Source: Phycisphaerales bacterium
GTDB lineage: Bacteria; Planctomycetota; Phycisphaerae; Phycisphaerales; UBA1924
Length of the DNA: 64,000 nucleotides
Direction of reading: 5' to 3'
NCBI GenBank assembly: GCA_020846975.1
Contig: JADLCX010000027.1
Span: 1 to 64,000 of the forward strand
The first letter of the stretch is position 1; each line of letters begins with the position of its first letter. Under the pieces are notes generated by a model. The model did not search any database. It saw nothing but the letters and a program-made list of their open reading frames with translations, and was not told the DNA's origin. The translations under genes were made by a program, and so were the position numbers. Positions 42,685 to 46,339 of the stretch are shown here, piece by piece.

Positions 42685-43971
42685 CTACCGATCCAGCTCC
42701 GCCGCCACGATGTTGATCGACCCGAGGATGGCGACAATGTCGCTGAGCATGTGCCCCTCGGTGATCTTCGCGCAGATCGAGTAGTTGATGAAGCACGGCG
42801 GCCGCACCTTCACCCGCCACGGCCTGGCTCCGCCATCGGCCACGATGAAGTACCCGAGCTCCCCGTTGGCCGTCTCAACCGCGTCGTAACACTCCGCGAT
42901 CGGGCTCTTCCACCCCCGGTTGCTCATGATCAACTCGAAGTGCTGGATCAGCCCCTCGATCGACCCGTACACATCCTTCTTCGGCGGCTTCACCATCTTT
43001 CCGTCGGCGAACGCATCGACCGGACCCTCGGGGATGACGGGCACAAGCTGCCGGATGATCGACAGCGACTGCCTGATCTCCTCGCACCGCACGCGGAACC
43101 GCGCGAAGCAGTCCCCCTCCTTCGCCACCGGCACCTTGAACTGCACCGCCTTCGCGCCAGCCCCGTCCCAGTTGTCCGCGTAACACAGGTACGGGAAGTC
43201 CTTCCGCACATCCCGCGCGACGCCCGAGGCCCGCGCCATCGGACCCGTCAGGCTCCACGCGATCGCCTCCTCCCGCGTGATCACGCCGATGTCCTTGGTG
43301 CGATCGATGAAGATCCGGTTGTTGGTGACCAGCACCTCCAGATCGCCCAGCGCGGCCTCGATGTCGTCGGCCGTCGAGAGCGCCATGCGCTGGAACACCG
43401 CCGTCTCGGGCAGGTCCTGCATCAGCCCCCCCACCCGCGTCCAGTCCGGATGGAACCTCTGCCCCGAGATGTAGTCGCACAGGTCGTAGATCCGCTCGCG
43501 CGGGTTGAACGCGTACAGAAACCCCGAGATGCCCCCGACGTCGAGCGCCGCCGCGCCCACGCACAGCAGGTGGTTCTGGACCCGCGCAAACTCCGCCATG
43601 ATCGTCCGCAGCACCTTGCACCGCGGCGTGATGTCGATCCCGAACAGCCTCTCCACCGCGTGGTGCCACGCGATGTCGTTCGCGATCGGCGACAGATAGT
43701 CCATCCGCGACACGATCGTCACGTACTGGTTGTAATCCAGGTGCTCGCCCAGCTTCTCGAACCCCGAGTGCAGGTACCCGATGTGCGGTGTGCACCGCGC
43801 GATCCGCTCCCCATCCAGCTCCAGCACCAGCCGCAGCGTTGTGTGCGTTGCCGGGTGCTGCGGCCCGAAGTTCAGGACCCACCGCTCGCCGGTATCGACG
43901 TGGCTCTTGAGATAGTCCGTGGACTCGATGTCGATCCCGAAACCTTGCTCGGGCTTGAGTGTGAAGGGCAT
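42685..43971 (-). CDS. nuoD: NADH-quinone oxidoreductase subunit D
   Basis: LNFGPQHPATHTTLRLVLELDGERI; HIGYLHSGFEKLGEHLDYNQYVTIVSRMDYLSP; C-terminal GSINIVAAELDR. Confidence 0.95.
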   Translation of the reverse strand: MPFTLKPEQGFGIDIESTDYLKSHVDTGERWVLNFGPQHPATHTTLRLVLELDGERIARCTPHIGYLHSGFEKLGEHLDYNQYVTIVSRMDYLSPIANDIAWHHAVERLFGIDITPRCKVLRTIMAEFARVQNHLLCVGAAALDVGGISGFLYAFNPRERIYDLCDYISGQRFHPDWTRVGGLMQDLPETAVFQRMALSTADDIEAALGDLEVLVTNNRIFIDRTKDIGVITREEAIAWSLTGPMARASGVARDVRKDFPYLCYADNWDGAGAKAVQFKVPVAKEGDCFARFRVRCEEIRQSLSIIRQLVPVIPEGPVDAFADGKMVKPPKKDVYGSIEGLIQHFELIMSNRGWKSPIAECYDAVETANGELGYFIVADGGARPWRVKVRPPCFINYSICAKITEGHMLSDIVAILGSINIVAAELDR

Positions 43972-44035: not shown

Positions 44036-44245
44036 CAGACGGTTGAACGATCGCGCGATAAACGATGGAAACAGCGTTGAATCCCGGAAACGCACCGGTA
44101 GTTCTTCGGCACGCACCGTTGCACGAGGGAAGAGCACCCGTGCGCGCGGGAAACGCACCGGCAATCGTTCGGGAGTTGCCGGTGCGGGCCCGGCAGCTAC
44201 CGGTGTTCGCGGCGGACACACCGGTGCGCACGTGAGATTGACCGC
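44036..44245. repeat. Second degenerate array with exact 21-bp period
   Basis: tgaatcccggaaacgcaccgg / tagttcttcggcacgcaccgt / tgcacgagggaagagcacccg / tgcgcgcgggaaacgcaccgg / caatcgttcgggagttgccgg / tgcgggcccggcagctaccgg / tgttcgcggcggacacaccgg / tgcgcacgtgagattgaccgc; ACCGG recurs every 21 nt; the first two units are weaker. Confidence 0.75.
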
Positions 44246-44301
44246 GGCGATTGACACACTCCTCCGCGCAGCCTCGGGTGCCGCCACCCGCGCTCGCAGT
44301 C

Positions 44302-44557: not shown

Positions 44558-46339
44558 ATGCACGACCTCCCGCTGCTGACCACCATCGCCGCTGCCTTCG
44601 CCGCGGCCTGGATCCTGGGTCTCATCACCCAGAGGCTCGGTCTCTCGCCGATCGTGGGCTACCTCCTCGCCGGCGTGGTGATTGGTCGCCATACCCCCGG
44701 CTTCGTCGGCGATGAGCACCTCGCCCAGCAGCTCGCCGAGGTCGGCGTCATCCTCCTCATGTTCGGCGTCGGGCTGCACTTCCACCTCAAGGACCTTCTC
44801 GCGGTCAAGGGCATCGCCATCCCCGGCGCCATCGTGCAGAGCGCGGTGGCCACCATCGTCACCGCGCTGGCCTTCCAGTACTTCGGATGGGACTTCAAGG
44901 CCGGGCTCGTCCTCGGCATGGCCATGGCCGTCGCCAGCACCGTCGTGCTCCTCCGTGTCCTCATGGACCGTGAGATGCTCAACACCGAGCACGGCCATGT
45001 CGCCGTCGGGTGGCTGATCGCCGAGGACGTTTTCACCGTCCTCGCCCTCGTGCTGGTCCCGGTCCTCGCCGGCCAGACCGGTGATGGCGATGCCGGGGGA
45101 GGCGGGGGTGACCTCGGTCAATCTTCCGGCCTCGCCGCGATCGGATGGGCCGTGCTCAAGCTCGGAGCCCTGGTCGCCCTCGTCCTGCTCGGCGGCTCAC
45201 GCGTGGTCCCCTGGATCCTGATCCAGGTCACCCGCCTCCGCTCCCGCGAGCTCTTCACGCTCACCGTGCTCGTGCTCTCCATCGCCATCGCCGTCGGCTC
45301 CGCCTCCCTCTTCGGAGCCTCCGTCGCGCTCGGAGCCTTCCTCGCCGGCATGGTCGTCGCCCAGTCCCCCGTCAGCCATCAGGCCGCGGCCGATGTTCTG
45401 CCCATGCGCGACGCTTTCGCGGTCCTGTTCTTCGTCTCCGTGGGCATGCTCTTCGATCCCTGGTTCCTGGTCACCCACCCCGGCATGGTGTCCGCGGGCC
45501 TGGCGGTGGTGCTGATCGCCAAGCCCCTGGCCGCCCTCGCGATCGTCGCCCTGCTCGGCTACACCCCGCGCACCGCGCTCACCGTCGCCATCGGCCTGGC
45601 GCAGATCGGCGAGTTCTCCTTCATCCTCGCCAACCTCGCCACCGAGCACAAGCTCCTCCCCGAGACCGCCAACAACGTCCTCGTCGCCGCGGCCATGATC
45701 TCCATCACCATCAACCCCCTGCTCTTCCGCTCCATCGACCGCATCGAACGCGCCCTGCAGGCCTGCCCGCCGCTCTGGAAACTCCTCAGCTTCCGCGTCA
45801 ACGCCCGCTTGCGGAAGATGGGCGCGAAGTCCAGCGTCACCGTCCCCGCAAGCGCCGAGGCCGAGCGTCCCGCGGCGATCATCGTCGGCTATGGCCCCGT
45901 CGGGCGCGTCGTCGATGCCATGCTCCGCGATTCCGGGCTCGACACCGTGGTCATCGACATGAACATGGACACGATCGCGGCCCTCACCAAGTCCGGCCGC
46001 CGGGCCATCTACGGTGATGCCACCAGCGCCGCCGTCCTCGACGATGCCGGCGTCCAGCGCGCTGTACACATGGTCATCACCCTCCCCAACCCGAGCGACC
46101 GACCGCCCGCCGTGCTCGCAGCCCGAAGCCTGAACTCGACGATGGAGATCACCGTCCGCGCCAGATTCCTCAGCGAGCGCGAGCAGCTCCGCCAGGCCGG
46201 CGCAACCACGCTGGTCTACGAGGAAGGAGAAGCCGGCGTCGAACTGGCCCGCCGCGTGCTCGAACGCCGCGGCGTCCAACGCGACAAGATCGACTCGCTG
46301 CTCGCCTCCATCCGCAAGCTGTGGAGCATGCAGGAGTAG
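44558..46339 (+). CDS. CPA2-family monovalent cation:proton antiporter (KefB/YbaL-like) with TrkA-N domain
   Basis: LGLSPIVGYLLAGVVIGRHTPGF; 12-TM antiporter region; RCK motif AAIIVGYGPVGRVVDAML...VVIDMNMDTIAAL...AIYGDATS. Confidence 0.92.
   Translation: MHDLPLLTTIAAAFAAAWILGLITQRLGLSPIVGYLLAGVVIGRHTPGFVGDEHLAQQLAEVGVILLMFGVGLHFHLKDLLAVKGIAIPGAIVQSAVATIVTALAFQYFGWDFKAGLVLGMAMAVASTVVLLRVLMDREMLNTEHGHVAVGWLIAEDVFTVLALVLVPVLAGQTGDGDAGGGGGDLGQSSGLAAIGWAVLKLGALVALVLLGGSRVVPWILIQVTRLRSRELFTLTVLVLSIAIAVGSASLFGASVALGAFLAGMVVAQSPVSHQAAADVLPMRDAFAVLFFVSVGMLFDPWFLVTHPGMVSAGLAVVLIAKPLAALAIVALLGYTPRTALTVAIGLAQIGEFSFILANLATEHKLLPETANNVLVAAAMISITINPLLFRSIDRIERALQACPPLWKLLSFRVNARLRKMGAKSSVTVPASAEAERPAAIIVGYGPVGRVVDAMLRDSGLDTVVIDMNMDTIAALTKSGRRAIYGDATSAAVLDDAGVQRAVHMVITLPNPSDRPPAVLAARSLNSTMEITVRARFLSEREQLRQAGATTLVYEEGEAGVELARRVLERRGVQRDKIDSLLASIRKLWSMQE

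Follow-up and report, generated by a model that had tools for sequence, protein, structure and literature searches.

Intergenic tandem arrays with an exact 21-bp period in a Phycisphaerales genome and their association with a three-helix/FN3 gene family

Introduction

Plasmid iterons and tandem partition sites recur at a spacing near 21–22 bp, which places the bound protein along a single face of the helix. The arrays described here resemble them in being tandem sites of about this spacing, but approximately 20 chromosomal copies occur in half a genome and their units are not common between arrays. Inspection of the flanking genes by eye, complemented by family searches for a few of them, revealed housekeeping genes, other genes and members of the FN3 family described below, with no replication or partition gene among those examined.

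Prokaryotic satellites are composed of tandem units of 10–200 bp, and those with a period that is a multiple of three are mostly thought to be coding (Subirana and Messeguer, 2019; PMC6749651). Our arrays share with them the tandem units and the occurrence of some families at several loci, but differ in their fixed period of 21 bp, intergenic location, lack of a codon signal, variable units and association with a gene family. In Beggiatoaceae, TAACTGA heptamer direct repeats form intergenic arrays upstream of genes and were proposed to be regulator-binding sites; a single fixed 7-bp sequence is repeated there 2–6 times, only a few nucleotides ahead of the start codon (PMC4679880). Both systems comprise many short tandem arrays preceding genes, whereas in the present one the spacing is fixed, the sequence is variable and the arrays lie mostly 75–350 bp upstream. 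The REP/BIME and RAYT-linked repeats (PMC3733652) are similarly extragenic, partly palindromic and in some cases linked to a gene family; unlike them, our arrays are strict 21-bp tandems, and the linked FN3 family has no transposase domain (Y1/Tnp_1). CRISPR arrays are also distinct, since the units described here abut at 21 bp without spacers. The open-licence literature that was searched contained no description of such a pattern of arrays and gene family, although this absence is not proof.

Materials and Methods

The window is a stretch of 64,000 nucleotides (positions 1–64,000 of JADLCX010000027.1), located in contig 27 of a 102-contig, 4.2-Mb Phycisphaerales genome, of which 2.30 Mb (55%) was read in the census. 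Non-coding DNA was scored for matches at lag p (lags 13–40; cut-off of at least 22), and genes were called using a purpose-written codon-usage script. The association between arrays and genes was determined for the 49 FN3-family genes that were preceded by 600 bp or more of available sequence. An independent sample of relatives, chosen by nuoD, comprised 1.40 Mb; no congeneric genome was found for comparison.

Results

Two arrays of the window

The preliminary description of the window distinguished two arrays with a 21-bp period (Table 1). All eight ACCGG-like words that it had placed at an exact 21-nt spacing in array 2 were confirmed: ACCGG (44094, 44157, 44199 and 44220), ACCGT (44115), ACCCG (44136), GCCGG (44178) and ACCGC (44241). 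The 535-bp gap separating nuoD from the CPA2 antiporter gene contains five exact copies of ACCGG, four of them in one 21-bp phase, and these two genes are indeed divergent, as had been claimed. The lag-21 segment of array 2 (44113–44249) scores 24.2, a value reached by none of 1000 dinucleotide shuffles (mean 6.5, maximum 15.2); when the best of lags 13–40 was allowed in the shuffles, 0 of 300 were as good. The gap has no second outstanding lag, the next best scoring 10.6. Array 2 is the weakest among the accepted arrays of the genome.

Table 1. Location of the arrays and context genes in the window.
Feature	Position	Strand	Remarks
Putative MlaD/MCE-like gene, upstream of array 1	2182..3513	+	reading of sequence
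Array 1	3682..3899	.	about ten 21-bp units; score 71.2
nuoD (NADH-quinone oxidoreductase subunit D)	42688..43971	-	100% self match; context gene
Array 2	44083..44250	.	eight degenerate units of 21 bp with a CACCGG core; columns locked at 44094+21n
CPA2-type cation/proton antiporter gene (putative)	44558..46339	+	ORF and gene call; name by sequence reading

Two further claims about array 2 were not supported in comparison with controls. For the GCACCGG half-site supposedly common to both arrays, the units of array 1 and array 2 were no more alike than column-shuffled controls, 417 of 1000 being equally similar, and the supposed inverted arms correspond to a chance level of dyad symmetry, equalled by 43 of 100 column shuffles.

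Full-length nuoD homologues (63–81% identity) are present in most of 40 relatives, and those of up to 81% identity belong to Phycisphaerales MAGs. The position of array 2 at nuoD is not conserved: no array upstream of nuoD was kept in the relatives, and the lone lag-21 signal found there (L116) is coding-like. A tie of array 2 to an FN3-family gene or to the promoter motif described below was rejected, neither being found. Array 2 belongs to a probably lineage-specific class of intergenic 21-bp arrays. Since it is solitary, eroded and unconserved beside nuoD in relatives, we claim no role for it in nuoD expression, nor any functional link based on the distance of 112 bp between the array and the nuoD start.

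Array 1 is clearly palindromic, each unit being composed of an 18-bp palindrome (TTGAACCG-nn-CGgTgCAA) and a 3-bp spacer. Its unit family is also present at C72:42777-43042 and C72:52099-52308 of the same genome. Three matches to the array 1 unit in relatives, outside this genome, were dismissed as chance, being devoid of arrays. Beside array 1 (window 3904–3990) an inverted repeat, CTCCGCGTCTCCGCGCCTCCGCGTGAG...CTCACGCGGAGGCGCGGAGACGCG, was observed; CTCCGCG-type stretches similar to it, located downstream of the L247 array and near C58:279091, suggest a dispersed repeat.

Census of 21-bp arrays

Within the 2.30 Mb, 19 non-coding segments scored at least 22 at lag 21, versus about 12 over 27 other lags. 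Lag 42 also gave 19 segments, as expected for a multiple of 21, and lag 21 is the sole enriched period in non-coding DNA besides this multiple. The scan for lag-21 periodicity proposed in the preliminary description, carried out over 55% of the genome, revealed further intergenic arrays, and their mostly differing unit sequences support its idea that it is the 21-bp spacing which is conserved. In the relatives' 1.40 Mb, five non-coding lag-21 arrays were found and none at lags 19, 20, 22 or 23.

The arrays are built of about 6–18 tandem units of exactly 21 bp. The twenty arrays listed for this genome have about 6–13 units each, and comparison of these units showed mostly unrelated sequences, e.g., TTGAACCGnnCGGTTCAA (array 1, C72), TTGGTCCGnnCGGACCAA (C41), AGGCCTGAGAA.. 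(C26) and CGCAGGTTCAA.. (C58). Only two groups with common units were distinguished: (i) array 1 and two arrays of C72, with C41 as a weaker member, in which the likeness among array 1, C72:42777 and the gene-linked C72:52099 reaches z 7.9–9.6 (9.6 for array 1 and C72:52099), and (ii) C71 and the gene-linked C101 (z 5.3). Strong dyad symmetry characterizes array 1, both C72 arrays, C41 and C26; it is weak or absent in most others, and absent in more than half of the arrays. Solitary arrays occupy divergent, convergent and tandem gaps alike, with no orientation preference.

Coding DNA accounts for 81% of the sequence read; nonetheless, of the 21 lag-21 arrays scoring at least 26, 18 are located in the 434 kb called non-coding and 3 in the 1867 kb of coding DNA, one of the latter being a likely start-site miscall. 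The variable positions have no codon-position bias (0.057 vs. 0.065 for the null). With this placement and no codon-phase signal, codon-like composition of high-GC sequence, an origin of the period considered in the preliminary description, fails as an explanation. Phased A/T curvature was also ruled out (A/T 10.5-bp harmonic z=1.0).

In 37 arrays, the conserved columns form one clustered block per 21-bp unit (first harmonic z=5.5), which is expected for recognised sites; patchy template switching or gene conversion could be an alternative source of this clustering. Two arrays of G000 (C58:278348-278557 and C42:99522-99695) have constant flanks between which the unit cores flip to the reverse complement (GCTCC/GGAGC and CTTCGG/CCGAAG, respectively), as template switching or a paired-strand constraint would give.

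The linked three-helix/FN3 gene family

The genes flanking several arrays are paralogues belonging to one unannotated family (alignment A1), with no match in Pfam, NCBIfam or PADLOC and with weak, scattered matches in PHROG. An AlphaFold model (three-sequence, pLDDT 74) predicts three helices at the N-terminus together with an FN3 domain, and fold and sequence searches returned FN3 proteins alone. This genome contains 14 matches to one member of the family. Members are present in 59 of the 163 genomes of the taxonomic family, with at least 17 in the richest genome, and full-length members are rare elsewhere in the phylum. Since no relative was found in viral contigs, a viral origin was rejected.

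A 21-bp array is located upstream of 26 of the 49 FN3-family genes and downstream of 2, while 23 genes have none. The upstream arrays, of about 11 units, lie 75–569 bp from the start (median 256). The array-bearing genes include L330, from another family of the class, and L331, from another family of the order. The relatives' 1.40 Mb holds three FN3-family genes, two of them with a lag-21 array upstream.

Nearly all C-termini of the family (A1) are MAA, LAA or VAA following a Gly-rich stretch, and resemble an ssrA/ClpXP-type degron or a sorting tail. Two neighbouring genes on the minus strand of G000 contig C22 were also noted. The first (C22:1820-3958) contains, as judged by eye, repeated putative HNH/AP2-like segments of the homing-endonuclease type, and its C-terminal portion gives a match to the FN3 region of the family. 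The second (C22:3959-4885), whose called start is overlapped by an array (4730–4939), encodes a protein beginning with MAERRFPRPDGDF that may be distantly related to the family, though the A1 profile gave no match.

A candidate promoter motif between array and gene

Between the array and the start of the FN3-family genes, a motif T(C/G)AAGT(C/G)G-N12-GTCGATGC was identified, with a mean score of 19.2, compared with 11.7 ± 0.5 for shuffles taken through the identical fit, and a spacing of 20 in 26 of 27 cases. The sigma28 consensus is composed of -35/-10-like elements, TAAAGTTT-N11-GCCGATAA. The motif fits this consensus loosely and may represent a sigma28-like promoter. Matches to the FliA_WhiG sigma factor were obtained in all 163 genomes (over the cut-off in 154), and the flagellin genes of relatives have the motif in a minority only.

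Array-less FN3-family genes score lower on average for the motif (12.2 vs. 16.4 for array-bearing ones, on which the matrix was trained), and several of them match well. Nearly all solitary arrays are devoid of the motif; a nearby match occurs only at C89 and at C22a, the latter being an array that overlaps a doubtful gene start. The motif was also observed preceding putative sigma-factor, response-regulator and sensor-kinase-like genes, so named by eye (G000:C42:53358, C102:127815 and C22:102630).

Turnover of arrays at related loci

Several FN3-family loci are syntenic between species. A 3-kb stretch is 88% identical between loci L269 and L270, and while their flanking coding region and promoter align closely, the array stretch diverges; among the near-syntenic L269, L270 and L271, the array is the fastest-changing part. 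In L258 and L281, the gene and 254 bp upstream are 84% identical, but the neighbouring genes differ and the array units are unrelated, although the arrays begin at nearly the same distance from the gene start (341 and 338 bp, respectively). Such 84%-identical gene loci with unrelated units disfavour binding of the FN3-family protein to its own array. Orthologues lacking arrays go together (L325/L348/L328 and L278/L282). The 21-bp spacing is thus retained and, for about half of the FN3-family genes, so is the position; the unit sequence is not.

Discussion

We tentatively favour, with somewhat less than even confidence, the view that these are helically phased protein-binding arrays with a selected spacing, acting on the promoter of the FN3-family genes. 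The units would be binding sites along which a protein assembles on one face of the DNA, with one set of subunits per two helical turns (21 bp), and the sequence specificity of this putative binder would shift quickly between arrays. The array preceding an FN3-family gene may have a regulatory or architectural function upstream of the sigma28-like promoter, while solitary arrays, such as array 2, may be additional sites of this type or ones whose function is being lost. Because most arrays within one genome differ in their units, no one sequence-specific protein can account for all of them. Counted against protein binding are the unrelated units of L258 and L281, the frequent absence of dyads, the array-less FN3-family genes and the solitary arrays, indifferent to orientation and nearly all without the motif.

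Unlikely, though a serious competitor, is the origin of the arrays as neutral satellites, produced as tandem duplications by a replication or repair process of this lineage with a 21-bp ruler. Such satellites would appear, multiply and wear away between genes, and the long 5' stretches of FN3-family genes would simply permit them. The mostly unrelated units, the rapid change of the array at L269/L270/L271, the solitary arrays in every gap orientation and the presence of near-perfect, young-looking arrays (L264 and L266) are all consistent with such a process. However, neutral arrays should be tolerated in-frame in coding DNA, 21 being a multiple of three, and the 1867 kb of coding DNA has only about 2. 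The upstream:downstream bias of 26:2 at FN3-family genes and the clustering of conserved columns also argue against neutrality, and no known mechanism yields a period of precisely 21 but neither 20 nor 22. Neutral VNTRs would be expected to have neither a preferred period, beyond chance or codon multiples, nor a gene association, and these arrays have both.

We consider it improbable that the arrays are recombination or insertion platforms, on which the FN3-family genes with their promoter are inserted as cassettes and of which the solitary arrays are unoccupied or copied examples. Such mobility would agree with the multi-copy nature of the family, with related units at separate loci, and with L258 and L281, where alike genes and upstream regions lie among differing neighbours at near-equal distances from their arrays. 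No recombinase, however, adjoins the arrays among the flanking genes examined, the family has no relative in viral contigs and several of its loci are syntenic across species.

Very improbable, in our view, is a function of the arrays in RNA, as hairpin ladders acting as attenuators or sites for RNA-protein binding. Three arrays (C58:278348, C42:78979 and L158:358) outfold their column-permuted versions on at least one strand (0/150), and the flipping of unit cores to the reverse complement fits such a structure; but the folding excess is absent in most arrays, array 2 included, Rfam yielded no family of meaningful score in the surroundings of array 2 (its one match, E=0.28, fell well short of the threshold), and the candidate promoter is located downstream of the array. 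Heptad repeats of small or mis-annotated coding regions (21 bp being seven codons) are scarcely credible, for despite the period divisible by three and open frames in several arrays, there is no codon-position excess of variation, many frames contain stops, the frame is inconsistent and the arrays are not called as genes.

Beyond helically phased protein binding, the arrays might constitute an element class set by a 21-bp ruler and not by sequence, whose units are repeatedly replaced while the position upstream of a dedicated gene family is kept. We regard this proposal as doubtful; if true, it would imply a binding or maintenance machinery reading DNA periodicity. Binding arrays are usually recognised by a common sequence. 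In the present case it is the spacing, and not the sequence, that persists, in many genera and next to one uncharacterised gene family, and arrays of this kind would escape standard motif or repeat searches. The arrays are thus a testable case of either helical-phase selection or a new 21-bp mutational ruler, and either would be unexpected.
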